Source: a virus. From it: 38,476 nucleotides of DNA. The DNA is taken from the IMG/VR virus record IMGVR_UViG_3300030098_005018, positions 1 through 38,476 of that record; one strand, given 5' to 3'. Every line of letters begins with the position of its first letter. Positions within the stretch are counted from its first letter, which is position 1. A model generated the notes under the pieces. That model had not been told where the DNA came from. It saw only the letters and a list, made by a program, of their open reading frames with translations, and did no database searches. Of this stretch, positions 2,139 to 15,435 are shown piece after piece. Position numbers and translations under genes: made by a program.

Positions 2139-2507
2139 TTATCTTTTTCCGCCATGATATTCTACAGCATGACCTTCTTTAATTAATAATTCGTTTACAC
2201 TTTCTAGTGTTAGTTTTTCTTGCCCATCTACCTTGTCTATAAACAACTCACCCAAACATCTTCCATATTTTCCAATACCATGAGATTTTACAGTAATATT
2301 TTCACAACCTTCTAACAATTGTTTAACTCTATCCTTAGCAGCTAAACCTCTAGCTTTTTCTTCTAAATCTCTTGTTCTAGACTCTGGAGTATTTATCCCC
2401 ATAAATCTTATTCTCTTTTTAATAGACACATCAAATCCTAAATCGATGTAGGCATCGATAGTATCGCCATCAACTACTCTATCTAATTTAATTTTATAAG
2501 TATACAT
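2139..2507 (-). CDS. Staphylococcal-nuclease-like protein
   Basis: This 122-aa protein covers a compact SNase (thermonuclease) fold. Visible motifs are VVDGDT (SNase Asp21 and Thr22), RIRFMGINTPES (Arg35 and Glu43 equivalents), GKYGRCLGELF (Arg87 equivalent) and LLIKEGHAVEY near the C-terminus. Family members hydrolyse DNA or RNA phosphodiester bonds with Ca2+. The Ca2+ ligand Asp40 of the reference enzyme is Asn here (INTPE), a change that also occurs in homologues and may lower or alter activity. There is no signal peptide, so it probably acts in the cytoplasm (host DNA degradation or genome processing) unless released by lysis. Its ATG at 2505-2507 shares one base with the stop of the thioredoxin-like gene (TAATG), which implies translational coupling. 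Family assignment is firm; substrate is unknown. Confidence 0.87.
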   Translation of the reverse strand: MYTYKIKLDRVVDGDTIDAYIDLGFDVSIKKRIRFMGINTPESRTRDLEEKARGLAAKDRVKQLLEGCENITVKSHGIGKYGRCLGELFIDKVDGQEKLTLESVNELLIKEGHAVEYHGGKR

Positions 2508-4295: not shown

Positions 4296-7200
4296 CTATC
4301 GTAATATTTTTCTACCACCATGCTTTTTCTTTTTCTTTTTGCTTTTTGTCTTTTCTTTAATTTCTTTTATCTTTTCACTGTCTCCAATACCAAGATTCCA
4401 TTTGCTCCAACCACTAAACATTAAAGCTCTTTCAAACGCGGTGTGCTGATTATTTAAAGACTCTCTCACATTCTGTGTTTTGTTATACAGTCTATTTAAA
4501 GGAACATTTGTTGTTGCCTCTACATAATTTGTCACCGCTGACCATTGAGGATTGTCAATATCAAACGTTTCCATTTCGTCTATAACTTTTCTATTATAGT
4601 TAAGAGTTTTTTCAGCATTAACTAGTTTTCTAGCTTTAATACCAAGCGGTGGCGATACGTTTAACATTTCCATTAACACAGCACTTTCATCCGCGTTATA
4701 TCCTTTTTCTCTTTGTTCATGCCATTTAATAGCCATATTTTTTAACGTTGCTGCAGCTGCTCCCCAAACACCAGTACCTCTTAATACAGAATCAATACTA
4801 CCCATAATCATTCTTTCTCTTTTCTTTAACCATCTTTCATCATCATCATCATCATCAAACATTACCATGAATAACGCTGATTGTAAAGAATAGAATATTA
4901 AGTTTTGTATTGCAAAATAATAAGCAATTCTTGAAATATTACCTAGATCACTTTGAAATTGTGGATTACTTGCGTTTCTATATTCAGGGCTTATTCTTCT
5001 ATTTTTAAGGTCTAAAAATGCTTTTTTACCTAATCTATTAAACTGTGATGTTACATTTTGGAAAGCCAATATAACTTTACCGAGCGGAGAGGCTTGTTGC
5101 ATTGAAACCATCCAAGGTTTAGCTGATTGCTGAGTTTCTTCTGCTAATTTTTGAAAATCAGTCCAAGCTTTTGACTCAGCTTCTTTTTGATTTAATCCTT
5201 GTTTTAAATATGTATTAATTCTATTTCTATAATAAGTTGCTCCACCTAAAGCGATCGCGTTGTTATCCCCGATTTGTGTTGGCAAAAATCCTAATTCTAA
5301 TAACTTTTTAATTACCGCTTGCGTTGGGTTTGCAGCGTTTTTAACTGATGCTGCTAACTCAGCGCCGTTAACATCTGTCATTATACCACCACGTCTTTGC
5401 TTCATAAAATCAGAGTTAAATATTGTAGCATAATCAGCCCAATATTGTGGTTGATTTGCAAAAGCTTTAGCTGCTGCAAATATATTATTATCAGCAAAAT
5501 TTATAAAATTAACCATAGACATTTGCTGTAAAACCGCAGATCTAATATTAAAGAACATTGTTGACGCTACAGAGCCATTTAAATAATTTAAGAACTTGTT
5601 TACAAGAGCGTTTTGACCACTAGGTCTATTTCTACCAGTTTTAGTTCTATATAATATATCTTTTAAAGCGGTAACCATGTCAGCTCCATAGGCAGCTTCT
5701 ATTTTATTTAAATTTTCTTGCGAGAATATTACGTCAGCATTTTCAAAAAACTCAGCGAAAAATTGTTCTCTACCAACTCTACCGGTAGCATCATCTAAAT
5801 CTATTCTTATATCTCCAGCTTCCCAACTTTCAGTAGGATTTACATAAGCCTCTTGTTTAGATATTACGTTTAAAGTTTCAGCGTAAGTTTGTAGTTCAAC
5901 ATCATTCATAACTAAATCAACTAAACCTTGTTGATCGGTCTTACTTAATCCCGGTATGTTATAATCATGTTTGTCCCATAAATACACTCTAATCGCATCT
6001 TGATATGTGAAATCACCGTCTGGAGTTTTTTTATTTAATTTTTTCTTAACATTCTCAAACTCTTTGTTTAATGATTTATAATCGTTAGCTATAGCTTGTT
6101 TAGCTGTGTTTAACTCTCTATCAGCCCTGTTTAACGGTCTAACTAAAGCTTCTTCAAAGAAATCTCTATGCTTGTTACCTTCTTTGCCTTTACCTATAAA
6201 GTTGTATAATAATCCTACAAAATCTTCATGTGATGGTGGTATAAAAAATCTAAATTTACCTTTACTTTCTCCACGTTTTCTAGCTTTAATAGCTGAAAAT
6301 CTTTTCTTAGATTCGATACCAGTTACATCCTCTAATATATTATTAAACTCAGTATTCATTCCTTTACTAAACTTAACTTTAGCTTGCTGAACCTTAGACT
6401 TAACATCGAACTGATCTAACATGTTTTGTACGGCTTGTACGTTTTGCAAGGCATCATCAGCAAAATAAAAGTCGTTATAACCCTCACCAACTTTATCAGC
6501 CATCCACAATGCTTTTGCTTCCGCTGTAGAATTACCTAAACCAGTTATATTTTTTAAAGGTATATTTAAACCGTTAGCTTTTAAAAACTCAAATATATGT
6601 GGAGCTGATTCGGGTGGCCTAGCGGTTAACACAAACATATCTTCGTTACCAAATTTCTTTTGCAGTTTTAAAGCTTTATTAAATAAAGGCGCTGTTTGTC
6701 CTTCCGTAACTACATTAAATTCTGAAAAATCAAATTCAGCTCCTTGAGCTAATAAATCAGCTCCTTCGCTAGCAAACTCTTCAGCGTCTAATCTTCTTTT
6801 TTCATAACCACTTACAAAGTCATCCATCTTACTTACCAAATCTGACGGCATAGGATCTTTCATTGTTAAGTTATCAGTGTTAACTTGCATAAATCTGTTT
6901 CCAAACATTTCTTTAAATCCATCTTTATTACCTTGTACTGCTTCGTGGTTTTTTCTAACTATAACATCAAGTAGAGATCTTTCTTTTCTAGCTTTATTTC
7001 TTTGTAAAGCAACATCTAAAGATGTTTCCACAAATAACATGCTAACATCATAACCCTTTTCTTTAAACTCATTTACAAGTTTTGTCATAACATTTATAGA
7101 TCCACCTGTTCCATCAACAACCACACCATTACCATTGCCTTTAAATTTCATCATTTTACGCTTAGCTATACGTCTAGCTTCAGCTTGTAATTTACCTAAA

Positions 7201-10200
7201 GTACTTTTTTGTTCTTTAGTAAGATCTCTCATATCTGCTGGTAAACCAGAGTTTTTCTTTAACCATTCTAAAGATATATCTTGATTAACAATTTTAAATC
7301 CTTGATCTTCTAAACCTAATTGTTTAACAACATTTGATTTGCCACTACCAGCGCCTCCAGCTAAAAATATAACTTTTCTATTAGGTTTTGGTGTTCCATC
7401 TGGATTTGGCATAGTTGCTCTAACACCTGATTTAGTTGTGGCTAACGTGTCATCAAAATCTAAAACAGTAATACCTCTAGGTTTTGAAGAAAATTTAATT
7501 TTTCTAGCTTCTACAATAGCGTTATTTAAGGTGTTAAATTTATTAATATTTCTACTAAATTTAATATTGGCAATTCCCTCCCCATAAACTTTACCCTTGT
7601 CCTTAGGGTCAATGCTTTCTATAGCATATAAATCTGGATGACCATATGTAGACATGTTATAATATCTTACTCTAGCGCTTTGTCCTACTTCAAAACCAAT
7701 AGGCATAACATATTGGTAACCCATTTCTTCAAGTACATCATCCATAGTGGTAGGTATAACAGCAACTGTATATTCTTCAAACAAAGCGTCTAGATCAATC
7801 TCTCCGTCGTTCATATAAGCGTCTGTTATCTTCATAACCATATAATTAGTAGGAATCATATGCTCATATCTAAGCTCACCTTTATATTTTTTACCTTTTT
7901 TATCTTTGTATATATACTTTAAATTAGCGGCTCTTTTTAATGGTGATTGCATATTACTAGCCATGCTCATCATTAGCATTGCAAAATCAGTTTTATCTAA
8001 AGCACCTTTTTTAATTTGATCTTTATAATGCTGAGCCATATCTCTAACAAAAAGCTCTGAAAGTTTAGCTTGAGCCTTTCTAGCTTTAAAGTCTCTATCT
8101 TCCATTGCTTCTTTAGATTTTTCAGCTAGAAGAGACGTGTCTATTTCTACTTTTTCACCTTTTACTGTTACTTCTTGAATCTTTTTTAAATTACCAGCTT
8201 CTGTTAGTTTAATATTTGGAAATATTTTTTTAAGTACATTCTTATTAAAATCTTTTTTACCATCAAAAACTTGATATCTTTGATCTCCAAATTTTTCTTT
8301 ACCAATATCTTTCGGCGTTACTTCGTACACAATACCTTTTTCGTTTACTTTAAATTTACCTCTACCAATTTTTGTACTAGTAGCATACATTCCACTAGCA
8401 TGAACCATCATCATTAAAGCTATTTGTTCACCGTACTTTTTTATAAGTTTTCTACCTAGGGTAACTATTTCGGCTCTTTGATTATTAATCCTACCTATTT
8501 CATCAAAAGCGTTAGAAATTTTTATGAATTTTCCTTTGTCGTTTTTTAAATCTAAAAACTCAGCTAAATTCATTTCTAGCGCAGCTGCTGTTATATTATC
8601 GTGTAAATATTCGTTAAGTTTTTGTTCTGGTTGAGTTTTTAAATTAGTGTGATTTTTATCTATAGTAGCATATCTTTTTACTAATTTAAATAAATCATTA
8701 GATAACGCTTTTAATTTAGTTTGATTATAATCTTCTCCCCAAACGCTATATACTGCTTGGTATACAGCTGCTTCGTCTCCAACATTTGTAACATTTAAAA
8801 TATCACCAAAAACATCTAATTTACCATAAAAAACTTTTAATTCAAAAGGATTAAAACCCCTAACAGTTTTACTAAATTTAACATCTTGATCCCTGTTTAT
8901 TCTTTCTTTTACAATACCAAGAACATTACTAACATGTGGTAAACCTTTCTCTCTTTGTTGTCTAATAAACTCATCTAAAACCCTAACTTGCTTTCCACCT
9001 ACTTTAACTGTTTGGTTTAATAAAACATCAAACACGGCATCCATAGCCATTATATTAATATTGTTTTTTACAAAAGCATCTTTTCTACCTCTAACTTTCA
9101 TAAAATCAATAAACTCTTGCTCTTTAGTGTCTACTTTTTCATAGATATTAGGACCTTGCGTCATACTTTTAACCTCAAAAGGTTGTATTAACCCTTCTAA
9201 TAAAGCTATCTTAATTTTTTCAGGACTAGCATTTACCGCTTTTAATTTAGTAAATATTTTATTCTTTTCATTTTTTTCCATCTGAACCAAATCAGAGGTG
9301 TGGGCATGTTTTACAAATGGCTTTCTAGTTTTCTTTAAAAAAGCCTCATAATCTTTCATCTCATCTTTAATGATTTTAAATAGTTTTTTCTGAGCAGCTT
9401 TAGAAAAACGCTGTGTCCAAGCAAAGTCACTTATTAAACCTAAATCTCCCGACAATAAAACGTCTCTAATCTCGTTTTTAATTTCAGTAGCAAATTTATC
9501 ATCAATACCTATTAATTTTCTATATCTATCCTCTTCTAAATTTTCTTTTCTTTTTCTTTTTCTTTCTTCAGCAGCTAAAACAGTATCAACATCTAAATCA
9601 CCAGCAATGTCCATACCGCCATCATCTCTAGACATGTCTATAGCCGACGTGAACTTATCAAACTGAGGAAACTTACGATCTATAATACCACCTTTAGCCA
9701 TTAATCTAGTTTCAATCTCCCCAAATATATGCGAAGTTAAACTTCTACCACCCTCTTCAGCTGGTTTCCAAGATCTAACTAAAAACGGTATACCATTATC
9801 ACCTTTTTCAATACCAGTTGTTACAACATCTAATATTTGATCTTTGTATAAATCATAATTAGCTGCTTTATCTCTTTTTTGTAAATAATTTACTTCTATA
9901 AATCTTCTCCATTTTTCACCTATAACGGTTCCAATCCAAAACCTACTATCACCAAGTGCTTCCCATTCTTTAGCTAATTGTTTTCTTACATTTATATCTT
10001 CGCTTAGTAATCGCTCTGGATTTTTCATGCCATACATTTCTAAAGCTTCTATTAACGCGTTGTTAGTTTCTTTAAATAAATCCTCTTTAACGGTTGTTTG
10101 CGAACCCACCGCTTTAGATAATTTAAAATCAATTCCTTTCTTTTTAGGTAATTGAACATCTACCTTACCTTTAACACCAGGTAAAACTAAACCAGGTGAT

Positions 10201-13200
10201 TTACCGTTAAAGTCATTGTACTTTTTAATAAATTCTAAAGCGTTTTGCGCATCAAATTTAGTAAAATCAAAACCTTTCTTTGTAACACCTTGAAATAAAC
10301 CACCGAATATTCTACCAACACCTTCTAATGCCACGCCATTTTCTAAACTTATATCAGAATTTTTAACACCCCTCATAGCGTCAGATAAAACAGCAAACCA
10401 TTCTTCGTTATACTCTCTAGTTCTTTTATCTTTAGTGTATAAATCCATCTTATCTTTGTGGAGCTTTAAAGCCGCTTGTATTTTAGGATCAGTAGAGGCC
10501 TCTAACTCAGAAATCACTTGATTTCTAACAGTTTGTAATTCAGAAACGGGTATTGCGTCTAGTATAAAATGAAATGCCTCGTGGTGAACAACGTTAGAAG
10601 AAGACCAATCACCGTAATTTGCGTCGATGTTTTTTCTTACGTTATCATTTACTATTACAGCAACATTACCTAAGTTAGCGCCATTAACATCACCATTGTA
10701 TAGTGATTGTAAATTAAGAAAAACCTCCAAAGGATTTCTACCGGCTTCTTGTTCTAAGTTATTTCCTTCAATAAAATTTCTTGCATCTTCAACGTTGTCA
10801 AATGTCATTACTGCTTTATCAGCAAAAAATCCTTCTGTCTGATTATTTATCCATTCAGCAAACTCTAAATTTGTTGTAAGATCATTTTTCCAAATCTCTT
10901 TTAGATTATTAAGTTGTAATTCCTTTATTTTGTTTTTTATTATTTCACCTTTTATATCGTTTTGTATAGTGTTAGGATTTAATCCACCGGTGTCTTTTTG
11001 TTGTTTTTTAGTTTTTTTGTTTTCGTTTTCAAGCTTAGTTAAATCTTTTTTTAAATTAGCTATTTCAACTAAATTGTCAATTACTTTAATTTTTTCGTTA
11101 TTACTTAGGTTTTTATACTTTGTGTTGTTAATAAAATCTTCTTGTGCTTCTAACTCTGTATATACCTCGTCTAATTGATCAATAGTAATTACACCGTCTT
11201 TTTGATACTGCTCGTATTCTTTTTTTATCTGATTTATAGATTGTCTAGTTAATTTTAAATCTTCACCACCAAACCAACCAGTTTTAGCTCTAAGTTCTTT
11301 TGTTGTTGTAGTTGCAACCTTACCAGCACCAACTAAAGGTCCAGTTGACAATAAGGCTTGACCACCAGCTTCAGCTAATCTTTTTATATTAGCATCTTTA
11401 TTACCGTAATATCCAGTTGACACACCAACACCAGTTATACTTGTTCCCTCTTGAGATGTTTCGGTAATAAACTCCATAAAACTAGCTTTTCCTAAATCTT
11501 TACCTACAGTTTCATAACCTTCGCTTAAAAATTTACCAAGTCTACCTCTTATCAAATGTCTTCCTAAACTTTTAGGTGCAAATTTAGTTGCTTTACCTAT
11601 AACAAAAAAGTTAGACACAAGGTCTAAACCAGCATTTGTAGCCCCAACCATTACAGCGGGATTTAAATTAGCTTCTCCCTTATCTAATATATCAGCCATA
11701 GCAGCGGCTCTTTCTTCTTTAGGAAGTTTTCTAAAAGCTTCTAACGCTTTTTCTATATCTTCACTACTTTGCTTTTGCCATTCTTTAGATCCAACTTCAA
11801 CTATTTGAATACCCTCTCTTGTGGGTGGAAACATTTTTTTAGCAGCTTCTATTTCTATAATATCTAAAGCAGCGCCACCACCCTCTTGTATATATGTAGA
11901 GCCACCCATGGTAAGAACTGCTGAAATCATTTGAACTGTTTGATCACCTAGCATACCCTGCCACTCATCTATAGTTAAATCTGGATCAGATATATCTTTT
12001 CCAAATATAGTTGGAACTCTAACGTCTTCTAACTTTTTTTGATATTCTTGTGATTCAGCTAGTTTAAATCCTATATCTTTATTTAAATTAGCTTTATAAC
12101 TTTCGAGATACTTTATTCTATCAGCGTTTGTTTTAAATCCAGTTGGTTCATCGGAAATATAATTAGCAGTTGGATCTAATTTTTTCAACTCTTCTATTTC
12201 TTCATTGGTATTTTTCAAATCAATACCTTTGTGAAGTATATTAACTTCTTTTAAAGCTTTAGGAAATTTTATTGCAGCTGTAATATACCCTTGTCTAATG
12301 TAATCTGAATCAAAATTAGTTATCCAAGACGGTAAGTGCATATCTTCAGCTTCTTTTCTTAATTTATCATCTAAAGTGCTACTAAACCTACTTTCTACCG
12401 CTTTTAAAACACCTTCTTGTATATTTTTTAATTCTTGATTTTGCTCAAATAACTCATTTTGCTTTTTGGTGATTAATTGTTTTAACTCTTTGTTAGCTAA
12501 TTCTACTTGTTTTTGATCAGTAAGATCGTATTTGTTTTTTAAATCGTCTATAGTTGTTTTAGTAAAATCTTCTAAAGTGACATTTATTTCTTCAAATATT
12601 TCTTTAATACCGGGTAAGTTTTCAGAATGTAAAGCTGCGTTATAAGCAGATTTCATGTGTTCGCCAAGTTCGTCTGAAGATAAATCTTTTATTTTTTTGG
12701 ATTTACCGTCTTTTCCTTCTACTTTATATGTATCAACTGTATTCCAAGCGGAGGCATACACTTGTGGGTTAACTGGAGATCCTTGTGAGTGTTTTTTAAC
12801 AAAATCATTTACATCTTGCGCTGTTTGTTTTGAACTGGCACCCCAAAGTTTATCAGAATATGTACTAAAACCAAATAAATCTAAGTCCGTTTGAATCTCT
12901 AATTTTTCTCTATCTTCTTTTGGTTGACCCTCAAATTTTGGTGGTGCATAGATTATAACTTTGTCTGTACCAAAACCAGCTTGATCAAACTCAAAACCTA
13001 AACCTCCAAATTTTTTCTTAAATCTATTTATAGCTTGTCTTTCCGGAACATCTACATCTTTCATTGTCACCTGTGGTAATTCCAAAGAACCATCGTCCGA
13101 CCCTGATTCCATAACGTTTGACTCCGTCGTTTGGGTCTCTATCGAGGAGTCTGTTTGGTTTCCCAAAGCAAGAAATTCTTCCTTTGAAATAATGTTTTCT

Positions 13201-13271
13201 TCTTTTTTATTTTTCTCTTCAACATTTGGTGTTAAAGATAAAAACTCTTCCATTGATATATTTTCTGGCAT
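4296..13271 (-). CDS. Giant polyvalent virion protein: zincin, HAD phosphatase with inserted kinase, LPD38-like C-terminus
   Basis: The protein is 2991 aa from the ATG at 13271, which lies just past the stop of the 720-aa gene. An ATG at 13349 would overlap that gene by 77 bases and is less likely. The N-terminus repeats (S)MEEFLSL and SKEEFLAL. A zincin site HEAFH (897-901) is followed by EEWFA (956-960), a plausible third ligand. DFDDT (1938-1942), LTAR (2215-2218) and FADDA (Asp2272/2273) are HAD motifs I, II and IV. Between I and II lies a Walker A, GGAGSGKS (1972-1979), with a zeta-toxin or polynucleotide-kinase-like domain. The region about 2610-2900 (FFNIRSAVLQQ, WTDFQKLAEETQQSAKP) resembles the LPD38 domain of large polyvalent proteins. 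An Asp6 tract is at 2806-2811, and the C-terminus is Lys-rich. Position matches T7 gp16, so it is probably ejected with the genome and may act on peptidoglycan proteins, nucleic acid ends or host defences. Stop is TAG. Confidence 0.85.
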   Translation of the reverse strand: MPENISMEEFLSLTPNVEEKNKKEENIISKEEFLALGNQTDSSIETQTTESNVMESGSDDGSLELPQVTMKDVDVPERQAINRFKKKFGGLGFEFDQAGFGTDKVIIYAPPKFEGQPKEDREKLEIQTDLDLFGFSTYSDKLWGASSKQTAQDVNDFVKKHSQGSPVNPQVYASAWNTVDTYKVEGKDGKSKKIKDLSSDELGEHMKSAYNAALHSENLPGIKEIFEEINVTLEDFTKTTIDDLKNKYDLTDQKQVELANKELKQLITKKQNELFEQNQELKNIQEGVLKAVESRFSSTLDDKLRKEAEDMHLPSWITNFDSDYIRQGYITAAIKFPKALKEVNILHKGIDLKNTNEEIEELKKLDPTANYISDEPTGFKTNADRIKYLESYKANLNKDIGFKLAESQEYQKKLEDVRVPTIFGKDISDPDLTIDEWQGMLGDQTVQMISAVLTMGGSTYIQEGGGAALDIIEIEAAKKMFPPTREGIQIVEVGSKEWQKQSSEDIEKALEAFRKLPKEERAAAMADILDKGEANLNPAVMVGATNAGLDLVSNFFVIGKATKFAPKSLGRHLIRGRLGKFLSEGYETVGKDLGKASFMEFITETSQEGTSITGVGVSTGYYGNKDANIKRLAEAGGQALLSTGPLVGAGKVATTTTKELRAKTGWFGGEDLKLTRQSINQIKKEYEQYQKDGVITIDQLDEVYTELEAQEDFINNTKYKNLSNNEKIKVIDNLVEIANLKKDLTKLENENKKTKKQQKDTGGLNPNTIQNDIKGEIIKNKIKELQLNNLKEIWKNDLTTNLEFAEWINNQTEGFFADKAVMTFDNVEDARNFIEGNNLEQEAGRNPLEVFLNLQSLYNGDVNGANLGNVAVIVNDNVRKNIDANYGDWSSSNVVHHEAFHFILDAIPVSELQTVRNQVISELEASTDPKIQAALKLHKDKMDLYTKDKRTREYNEEWFAVLSDAMRGVKNSDISLENGVALEGVGRIFGGLFQGVTKKGFDFTKFDAQNALEFIKKYNDFNGKSPGLVLPGVKGKVDVQLPKKKGIDFKLSKAVGSQTTVKEDLFKETNNALIEALEMYGMKNPERLLSEDINVRKQLAKEWEALGDSRFWIGTVIGEKWRRFIEVNYLQKRDKAANYDLYKDQILDVVTTGIEKGDNGIPFLVRSWKPAEEGGRSLTSHIFGEIETRLMAKGGIIDRKFPQFDKFTSAIDMSRDDGGMDIAGDLDVDTVLAAEERKRKRKENLEEDRYRKLIGIDDKFATEIKNEIRDVLLSGDLGLISDFAWTQRFSKAAQKKLFKIIKDEMKDYEAFLKKTRKPFVKHAHTSDLVQMEKNEKNKIFTKLKAVNASPEKIKIALLEGLIQPFEVKSMTQGPNIYEKVDTKEQEFIDFMKVRGRKDAFVKNNINIMAMDAVFDVLLNQTVKVGGKQVRVLDEFIRQQREKGLPHVSNVLGIVKERINRDQDVKFSKTVRGFNPFELKVFYGKLDVFGDILNVTNVGDEAAVYQAVYSVWGEDYNQTKLKALSNDLFKLVKRYATIDKNHTNLKTQPEQKLNEYLHDNITAAALEMNLAEFLDLKNDKGKFIKISNAFDEIGRINNQRAEIVTLGRKLIKKYGEQIALMMMVHASGMYATSTKIGRGKFKVNEKGIVYEVTPKDIGKEKFGDQRYQVFDGKKDFNKNVLKKIFPNIKLTEAGNLKKIQEVTVKGEKVEIDTSLLAEKSKEAMEDRDFKARKAQAKLSELFVRDMAQHYKDQIKKGALDKTDFAMLMMSMASNMQSPLKRAANLKYIYKDKKGKKYKGELRYEHMIPTNYMVMKITDAYMNDGEIDLDALFEEYTVAVIPTTMDDVLEEMGYQYVMPIGFEVGQSARVRYYNMSTYGHPDLYAIESIDPKDKGKVYGEGIANIKFSRNINKFNTLNNAIVEARKIKFSSKPRGITVLDFDDTLATTKSGVRATMPNPDGTPKPNRKVIFLAGGAGSGKSNVVKQLGLEDQGFKIVNQDISLEWLKKNSGLPADMRDLTKEQKSTLGKLQAEARRIAKRKMMKFKGNGNGVVVDGTGGSINVMTKLVNEFKEKGYDVSMLFVETSLDVALQRNKARKERSLLDVIVRKNHEAVQGNKDGFKEMFGNRFMQVNTDNLTMKDPMPSDLVSKMDDFVSGYEKRRLDAEEFASEGADLLAQGAEFDFSEFNVVTEGQTAPLFNKALKLQKKFGNEDMFVLTARPPESAPHIFEFLKANGLNIPLKNITGLGNSTAEAKALWMADKVGEGYNDFYFADDALQNVQAVQNMLDQFDVKSKVQQAKVKFSKGMNTEFNNILEDVTGIESKKRFSAIKARKRGESKGKFRFFIPPSHEDFVGLLYNFIGKGKEGNKHRDFFEEALVRPLNRADRELNTAKQAIANDYKSLNKEFENVKKKLNKKTPDGDFTYQDAIRVYLWDKHDYNIPGLSKTDQQGLVDLVMNDVELQTYAETLNVISKQEAYVNPTESWEAGDIRIDLDDATGRVGREQFFAEFFENADVIFSQENLNKIEAAYGADMVTALKDILYRTKTGRNRPSGQNALVNKFLNYLNGSVASTMFFNIRSAVLQQMSMVNFINFADNNIFAAAKAFANQPQYWADYATIFNSDFMKQRRGGIMTDVNGAELAASVKNAANPTQAVIKKLLELGFLPTQIGDNNAIALGGATYYRNRINTYLKQGLNQKEAESKAWTDFQKLAEETQQSAKPWMVSMQQASPLGKVILAFQNVTSQFNRLGKKAFLDLKNRRISPEYRNASNPQFQSDLGNISRIAYYFAIQNLIFYSLQSALFMVMFDDDDDDERWLKKRERMIMGSIDSVLRGTGVWGAAAATLKNMAIKWHEQREKGYNADESAVLMEMLNVSPPLGIKARKLVNAEKTLNYNRKVIDEMETFDIDNPQWSAVTNYVEATTNVPLNRLYNKTQNVRESLNNQHTAFERALMFSGWSKWNLGIGDSEKIKEIKEKTKSKKKKKKHGGRKILR
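4838..4855 (+). repeat. CAT trinucleotide tract (Asp6 in the giant protein)
   Basis: Six consecutive CAT units on the plus strand encode six Asp (2806-2811) in the giant protein, within MFDDDDDDERW. Slippage here would add or remove Asp residues without changing frame. Confidence 0.9.
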
Positions 13272-13272
13272 A

Positions 13273-15435
13273 TTATTTTTCTTTAAATGTTCCGTCTTTT
13301 TGATATATAAATGTTTTATCTCCCCTAGAATATTCATTACCAACAACAAATTCTGGAGATAATAATTTTTGTCCTTCTTCGCTCATTAGGTATTTAACTA
13401 AATTCTGCATATCCATTTCGTTATTAACATCGTAATCCCTACCCTGAACGTTTATTCTTTCGTTTAAGTTAAACGGGGTAGATATTTGAAGATTAGGAAA
13501 AGCTTTTGACAATAAGAAATCTACGTCATCGTCATCAATATTTCCTTTAAATAAATCACGCAGAGTATATTCACCAATAGGTGTATCAAAGTTAATTTCT
13601 TGACCTTGCGTTATAGGTTTGACAACTTGTTCTTTTATAGGTTTGTATGTTTTTGTTTTTGTTTCTGGTGGCGTTGTTGTTGTTGTTGTTGTTGATTTTC
13701 CAGATATATAACCAACTTTATCATCAAAACTTAAATTGAATGCCAAATCATCTTTTGTAAGATTTTCCCACTCAGCATTTTCGTTAAACATCATATACTG
13801 TCCATTTTCTTTCTTCCACTTCACTCCATTCCAAGCCGTTCTACGAGGTATATCGTTAGGATCATCGTTTAATAGTTTAACATCTGGATCGATAGATGTT
13901 TTAGGTATTGACTGTTTACCTATAAAGTAATTTCTACCAGTTCCTGTTGTAGTACCACCTGGTTCTTTTCTTCGTCTCATACCTTCGTTAAACATGTTTT
14001 CGCCGTCTCTTTTATATCTTTCTAACGCAGCTTCTCTAGTTACGTTAACGTTGTAATTTTTATCAGATCTATTTAAAATAGCGCTAACAACTTTTAAATA
14101 ATTATCAGCACCAACACCTTCTCCAATAAAATCAGCCTCTGTAATACCCTTAGAAGTTCCAGGTACATCGACTATATCACTCGCAATACCACTACCGGAA
14201 GATGTTAAAGTACTTAAGTATTTAAATATTTCAGCCGAATCGACACTTTCGTTAGTTAAATCCGCAGCAAAACTAGTAGCGTTCATACCTAACGGTTTTC
14301 TAATCGCAGCGTGTAAAACATTTTCGTCTTCCAAAGCAGGTCTTAAATCATTTACAAATTTATCGCCTAAATAACTTGTACCGTTAATAGCACCTCTAGT
14401 ATCTTGAGCAAGAAATAATTTGTCTATAGAACTTTTAACTTTAGGATTAATTTTTGGAGTTAATAAAGTGTTTGTTTCACTACCGTCTATAACAAAAGGA
14501 TCAGCATTTGGATCTGTTTCTACTTGACCTAAATGATTAATACCAGTTACTATTTTACCTGAAGAATCTTGTAAAGCAAAAGCAAGTTCATCATTAGCGT
14601 TTCTAGTTAAAACAGCTTTAAAACCTTTAAACTCTCCATCTTGTATAACACCCGTTTTAGTTTTATAAGCTGTTAATGCGTGTTGCATTAATAGATTTAA
14701 TTTACCAGTGGATTCAAAATCAACATTACCACTGGTTAAAAGATCACTATTAAAATTATCAGCATTTTCTAAAAACTGGATATCAGCTATCAACTGATCT
14801 CTTTCTCCTTTAAGCTCATGTCTTTTTTTTCTACTCCCAGCATCTGTTTTACCCCAAAGTTTTCTTAAATCTTTTCTAATATTTCTTAATTCATTACCAA
14901 TAGTAACGGGTTGAATTTTTGACTGCTGTTTCATCCACTCGTCTTTTGATAAAACAGGTTTAGTCTCTACTTTGTTTGATTTTTCTATTTCTAATTTATA
15001 ATTCTCGTATTGACTTTTAGCATCACCACCTTGCCTTTTAACTGGGTCTTGTAAAACCCAATCTTTAAACTCTAAAATCTCTTTTGGCTTTACATCTGTT
15101 TTTTGACCTTCTACATATTTATCATAACGATCATCAATTTGAGTTTCAGTTATAATTTGATTTTCTTCATCTCTATATACCATGTAGTTATCACCCTTGA
15201 TATTTAGATTTTCATTTTTAATAGCTTTCTTTGCCGCTTGTAATCCTAATTCGCCCACCGATTGACCAACTTCTGACCAAGTGGCAGCTACTTGCTTCAT
15301 TGTTCTATCATAGCTTTCAGCCATTTTTTCAAACGTTCTACTAAGATCTTTTGGCACATTTGCCATACCCATTCTGTAAGCTGCTGCTACTAAACTTTGA
15401 TCTGCTCTTATATCCATATTCATTTTTTTTGCCAT
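13273..15435 (-). CDS. Large internal virion protein candidate (T7 gp15 position)
   Basis: This 720-aa protein has no motif I recognise. Residues 1-75 are helical and charged (DLSRTFEKMAESYDR, TMKQVAATWSEVGQSVGEL), and a basic stretch follows near 190-215 (LRNIRKDLRKLWGKTDAGSRKKRHELK). A low-complexity linker with seven consecutive Thr precedes PPETKTKTYKP near residues 580-600. The C-terminal 100 residues look folded (FDTPIGEYTLRDLFKG, DVDFLLSKAFPNL). It lies between a gp14-like 246-aa gene and the giant gp16-like gene, which is the T7 position of internal core protein gp15; a virion-internal or ejected role is inferred from that alone. Its stop lies 1 base from the giant gene's start, so the two are probably translationally coupled. 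Confidence 0.75.
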   Translation of the reverse strand: MAKKMNMDIRADQSLVAAAYRMGMANVPKDLSRTFEKMAESYDRTMKQVAATWSEVGQSVGELGLQAAKKAIKNENLNIKGDNYMVYRDEENQIITETQIDDRYDKYVEGQKTDVKPKEILEFKDWVLQDPVKRQGGDAKSQYENYKLEIEKSNKVETKPVLSKDEWMKQQSKIQPVTIGNELRNIRKDLRKLWGKTDAGSRKKRHELKGERDQLIADIQFLENADNFNSDLLTSGNVDFESTGKLNLLMQHALTAYKTKTGVIQDGEFKGFKAVLTRNANDELAFALQDSSGKIVTGINHLGQVETDPNADPFVIDGSETNTLLTPKINPKVKSSIDKLFLAQDTRGAINGTSYLGDKFVNDLRPALEDENVLHAAIRKPLGMNATSFAADLTNESVDSAEIFKYLSTLTSSGSGIASDIVDVPGTSKGITEADFIGEGVGADNYLKVVSAILNRSDKNYNVNVTREAALERYKRDGENMFNEGMRRRKEPGGTTTGTGRNYFIGKQSIPKTSIDPDVKLLNDDPNDIPRRTAWNGVKWKKENGQYMMFNENAEWENLTKDDLAFNLSFDDKVGYISGKSTTTTTTTPPETKTKTYKPIKEQVVKPITQGQEINFDTPIGEYTLRDLFKGNIDDDDVDFLLSKAFPNLQISTPFNLNERINVQGRDYDVNNEMDMQNLVKYLMSEEGQKLLSPEFVVGNEYSRGDKTFIYQKDGTFKEK
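13673..13693 (+). repeat. GTT trinucleotide tract (Thr7 linker in the 720-aa protein)
   Basis: Seven consecutive GTT units on the plus strand read as a run of Thr codons on the minus strand, forming a low-complexity linker (STTTTTTTPP) before the C-terminal domain of the 720-aa protein. Copy-number changes would be in-frame. Confidence 0.9.

Follow-up and report, generated by a model that had tools for sequence, protein, structure and literature searches.

The pairing of a P-loop kinase with a HAD phosphatase on one chain is already known from T4 polynucleotide kinase-phosphatase (PseT, Pnkp) and from bacterial Pnkp1 of the Pnkp/Rnl/Hen1 complex. In the T4 enzyme the domains are arranged in tandem, the kinase (residues 1-153) preceding the HAD (154-298). 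The polynucleotide kinase of C. thermocellum has a phosphatase partner of the calcineurin type, not a HAD. Among jumbo phages, PNK-HAD proteins have an N-terminal kinase and the HADs termed Swiss-army-knife stand alone (PMC7824862). The paper on phage polyvalent proteins reports modules of the metallopeptidase, ART and zeta-like kinase types (Iyer et al. 2017, PMC5512222); a search of its text by term returned neither a HAD phosphatase nor a nested kinase. The unit described here likewise joins a P-loop kinase to a HAD phosphatase; nesting is what differs, with HAD motif I before the kinase and motif II after it. This architecture is genuine and conserved and, to the extent checked, has no earlier description: a literature search of partial coverage returned no paper in which a HAD cap harbours a kinase.

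The window is the whole stretch of DNA analysed, a virus record of 38.5 kb. Its giant ORF shares strand and module with the genes for terminase, portal and virion structural proteins. Residues are numbered from TTG 13349. The likelier start is ATG 13271 (Met27), just past the stop of the upstream gene, and the residue numbers of the preliminary description differ by 26 because it counted from there. Coordinates are collected in Table 1.

Table 1. Features of the giant gene and of the kinase-in-HAD unit in the window.
Feature	Nucleotides	Strand	Residues	Remarks
Giant late-operon ORF	4296..13349	(-)	3017 aa	counted from TTG 13349
HEAFH, HEXXH-type zincin motif	10569..10583	(-)	923-927	motif only; same giant protein; as in polyvalent proteins
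HAD part 1	7392..7478	(-)		first strand, motif I, first cap-hairpin strand
Motif I, DFDDT	7446-7460	(-)	1964	
Inserted P-loop kinase	about 6807..7391	(-)	about 1987-2181	Pfam AAA_33 and Zeta_toxin above cut-off; polynucleotide-kinase-like fold
Walker A, GGAGSGKS	7335-7358		1998	
NxD			2022-2024	
DGTG			2079-2082	
Kinase lid			R2117/R2121/R2124	
HAD part 2	6372..6806	(-)		second hairpin strand, cap helix, motifs II-IV
Motif II, TAR	6618-6626	(-)		within LTARP (2241), 6615-6629
Motif III	6513-6515	(-)	K2279	
Motif IV, DD	6453-6458	(-)		within FADDA (2296), 6450-6464

HAD motif I, the P-loop kinase and HAD motifs II-IV form one nested unit, and all four motifs listed in the preliminary description are present. 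The insert is positioned between the motif I strand and the remaining HAD core, as in HADs with a C1-type cap insert. Pfam matched only the kinase of the window protein (AAA_33, 1993-2125; Zeta_toxin, 1989-2126). The HADs of relatives gave sub-threshold matches to DUF2608 and HAD models, a PDB sequence search with the HAD returned no significant match, and the same search with the kinase returned weak matches only. The sub-threshold HAD signals would suit an artefact in which HAD-like motifs flank a kinase by chance without forming a single HAD fold, a reading rendered exceedingly improbable by collinear kinase-free relatives that fold alone as complete HADs, by a confident nested model and by six invariant HAD catalytic residues. 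A chance origin of the motifs was rejected on the Pfam kinase matches between the HAD motifs, on 51 kinase-bearing and 169 kinase-free relatives among the matches listed, and on the pLDDT of 95.

Relatives were taken from IMG/VR scans, and counts refer to distinct sequences among the matches listed, not to frequencies. Relatives of the giant protein occurred in two main states, with either a short turn or the kinase in the HAD. On this basis 228 distinct related HADs were sorted into 169 without an insert, 51 with the kinase at the site and 8 with another insert, so that among relatives the HAD was mostly found without the kinase. In collinear alignment, the kinase replaces the short turn (PDGT..LNAEEFA) of the kinase-free HADs. 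Motif I and the DFSEF strand are 49 residues apart in almost every kinase-free locus and 248 apart in almost every locus with the kinase.

An AlphaFold2 model of the nested segment, built from an alignment of 126 sequences, had a pLDDT of 95.2 and a pTM of 0.88. HAD strands 25-30 and 231-236 of the model bracket the kinase, which sits in the turn of the cap beta-hairpin. A kinase-free relative modelled alone folded into an entire HAD in which a short hairpin occupies the insert site (pLDDT 91.9). The preliminary description had placed the kinase at the cap insertion point of a HAD and had set structure prediction as one check; the prediction returned one HAD fold around the insert and, with the collinear relatives that have or lack the kinase, bears the placement out. 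Its further statement that the topology is unlike that of T4 Pnkp also holds.

Across 56 nested copies, D1964, D1966, T2242, K2279, D2298 and D2299 of the HAD and K2004, D2024, D2079, R2117, R2121 and R2124 of the kinase were invariant; D1967 varied once. K2004, D2024, R2117 and R2121 align with residues of T4 PseT. The HAD had a median dN/dS of 0.195 and the kinase one of 0.211. The last residue of Walker A is Ser or Gly, GKG being present in 23 of the 51 distinct nested kinases (for example L025, L027 and L031). GKG occurs in adenylate kinases too. Both sites are predicted, with high confidence, to be those of active enzymes.

Fold comparison placed both halves closest to polynucleotide end-processing enzymes. 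With the model of the kinase-free relative, the best match of the HAD was the T4 Pnkp 3'-phosphatase (Z 13.2), followed by bacterial Pnkp1 (12.5) and other HADs (at most 11.7); by Foldseek alone Pnkp was not top-ranked. The best match of the kinase was the C. thermocellum polynucleotide kinase domain (4gp7, 4jt2; Z 17.1, identity about 18%), with PSTK (15.8) and then T4 Pnk and zeta (14.1) next. Profiles are also held in common with T4 Pnkp. The T4 PseT HAD matched phrog_415 at 3e-24, as did HAD-only relatives L178 (2.7e-8) and L108 (7.1e-4), and the window kinase matched phrog_505, the family of T4 Pnk itself, at 1.2e-5. The RNxxR lid and NxD motif of T4 Pnkp are kept in the window kinase, and HAD motifs I-IV are present. 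Against this likeness, Arg38 of T4 Pnk corresponds to a Leu in the window, the phage family conserving instead a Glu four positions beyond the catalytic Asp, and the unit is enclosed in a giant late-operon protein. The equivalog model of bacterial Pnkp, TIGR04075, scored 13.1 bits in the window against a curated cut-off of 750, and family profiles returned generic kinases for the window kinase, with no specific match.

By fold, the phosphatase half most resembles the 3'-phosphatase of Pnkp and the inserted half polynucleotide kinases, which makes Pnkp-like end-healing the best functional guess. The locus may tentatively be read as a rearranged Pnkp-like kinase-phosphatase, its kinase nested in the HAD cap hairpin, that serves as an exchangeable module of a giant phage protein of the polyvalent type. 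That nucleic-acid ends are the substrate is given somewhat less than an even chance. The kinase and the HAD need not share one substrate, because the HAD is mostly kinase-free and the slot hosts other modules.

The preliminary description spoke of an end-healing or zeta-toxin-like enzyme. The end-healing part gains from the fold and profile links to Pnkp; sequence cannot separate the two parts, and the Leu at the Arg38 position weakens the first. The kinase might instead be zeta-toxin-like, or act on another small molecule such as a nucleotide sugar, as an injected effector directed at host metabolism or wall synthesis, the HAD being an unrelated phosphatase scaffold. Zeta_toxin (PF06414) scored 44.8 bits against a gathering score of 22.3, the zeta fold is similar, T4 Arg38 is missing, zeta-like kinases fused to phage MuF and polyvalent proteins are reported (PMC5512222), and ART-like modules occupy the same slot. 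Polynucleotide kinase folds nevertheless rank higher than zeta, the enclosing HAD (into which zeta toxin and PezT are not nested) also points to Pnkp, and the PezT model reached only 13 bits of a cut-off of 470. Among neighbours scanned for known families, no antitoxin-like gene and no toxin-antitoxin context was seen. This alternative is judged unlikely. One public relative, BFVD entry A0A218MLT5, is named UDP-N-acetylglucosamine kinase, a name that perhaps derives from zeta-toxin similarity alone.

Alternatively, the kinase and phosphatase might oppose each other on another common substrate (a nucleotide signal, tRNA or protein) and so set its phosphorylation state. The PSTK-like fold, the conserved and selected active sites and the differences from T4 Pnk in substrate residues agree with such an arrangement; it is rather improbable, given that both nearest folds are halves of Pnkp and that no family match was more specific than generic kinases.

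Were the Pnkp-like reading correct, the giant protein would enter the cell together with the phage DNA, where the HAD would strip 3'-phosphates and the kinase would add phosphate to 5'-hydroxyls. Broken ends of the incoming DNA (or of host RNA) would become ligatable, and a ligase would seal the healed ends. A phage ATP-dependent DNA ligase is present in most kinase-bearing relatives with long contigs. In contigs of at least 50 kb, PF01068 was found in 10 of 11 kinase-bearing against 7 of 28 HAD-only contigs (Fisher p 2.6e-4, kinship ignored); examples of the kinase-bearing contigs are those of L005, L042, L062 and L068. A DnaB match, found in 29 of 43, was taken to indicate coverage of the replication region, and with only such contigs counted the ligase was found in 8 of 9 kinase-bearing against 6 of 17 HAD-only. 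DNA polymerase A, found in 1 of 43, was useless as a completeness control. Relatedness may explain the association between ligase and kinase, because the independent contrasts number only 2 to 5; independent pairs gave no confirmation. No NAD-dependent ligase was found, and no T4-type RNA ligase was seen in 13 records, where the control was silent as well.

In some relatives the hairpin holds modules other than the kinase. Inserts of roughly 130-140 aa that look ART-PolyVal-like take the kinase site in L079/L265 (E 0.0018), in L385/L394/L396/L401 (0.018) and in L395 (0.13), all below the Pfam cut-off. A longer insert at the site (L354:2380-3078) contains YYHGTS, and shorter ones (L268:3028-3438, L172:4031-4378 and L392:3019-3294) gave no family match. 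Since sister phages leave the loop empty or fill it with other modules, the HAD cap loop resembles a swap-in site for tools that serve the onset of infection. A wider reading, in which the cap hairpin is a general plug-in site where recombination equips one injected phosphatase with differing cassettes, be it the kinase (as a nested Pnkp healing incoming DNA for the ligase), an ART-like domain, another module or nothing, is possible though doubtful.

The giant protein may be akin to the polyvalent proteins (PMC5512222): it is a giant multidomain late-operon protein with a clear HAD, a kinase that has zeta-like features and a HEXXH motif, and its counterparts in sister phages have inserts with sub-threshold ART-PolyVal matches. 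A Pfam scan gave no family match at its HEAFH site. From the late structural operon, the HEXXH motif and the ART-PolyVal-like inserts that take the kinase's place elsewhere, it was judged probable that the protein is delivered into the host with the virion or phage DNA. The term ejected virion protein in the preliminary description is consistent with these features, and ejection itself is an unproven inference. Slightly downstream of the giant gene, the window encodes a small homologue of staphylococcal nuclease (PF00565, E 1.8e-11; 2139-2507, minus strand).

The window portal is 42-53% identical to portals of an uncultured spring phage, Maribacter phage Panino and Flavobacterium phages. On this ground, a marine bacterium of the Bacteroidota is the probable host. 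In Panino, the late operon ends with a gene of 1829 aa (L408:35399-40888) in the position corresponding to that of the giant gene. Homology between the two was not detectable, and its annotation as a tRNA methyltransferase finds no support in Pfam. A tblastn search of 50,697 cultured-phage records with the parts of the giant protein flanking the HAD-kinase segment on both sides gave 0 matches, and with the HAD alone as query the sole match was an uncultured jumbo phage (28% identity). Bacterial genomes gave a single match, a kinase-free copy of the giant protein (L184) on the Maricaulis MAG contig NZMJ01000083.1, which is perhaps a phage contig within the bin.

The inserted kinase also has homologues outside HADs. 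Stand-alone phage kinases of phrog_2071 (HTVC008M, Melnitz) are 31-40% identical to the insert; they differ in being separate small proteins, and the nested kinases form a clade of their own. The jumbo Agrobacterium phage Atu_ph07 encodes a multidomain protein of 778 aa (L182:1721-4054), of which a homologous kinase forms part.

Exchange of the module was assessed on trees. Kinase presence requires 2 changes on a HAD tree made with the insert left out, against 11 (downstream) and 21 (upstream) on flank trees, which are quick trees with long branches. The difference suggests that the HAD, with or without its kinase, has been swapped independently of the sequence around it. The HADs of the window, L004, L005 and L025 look mosaic, their ends being kinase-free-like and the cap, from the hairpin to GQTAP, resembling that of kinase-bearing HADs. 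In a permutation scan the observed contrast was reached in 15, 1, 1 and 6 of 2000 shuffles, respectively. In a tree of the kinases, those of L004 and L025 join the ones from the main kinase-bearing clade. The pattern fits a kinase-free HAD having received a cassette of cap plus kinase, and some of it could stem from cap residues that adapted to their insert.

These uncultured marine phages offer one defined protein loop with interchangeable modules, some of them ADP-ribosyltransferase-like. The many natural pairs with and without the kinase in the marine virome would allow a direct test of what the kinase contributes to the phosphatase. Should DNA or RNA ends be healed on entry, the phage would carry in its virion a means of countering nuclease defences.
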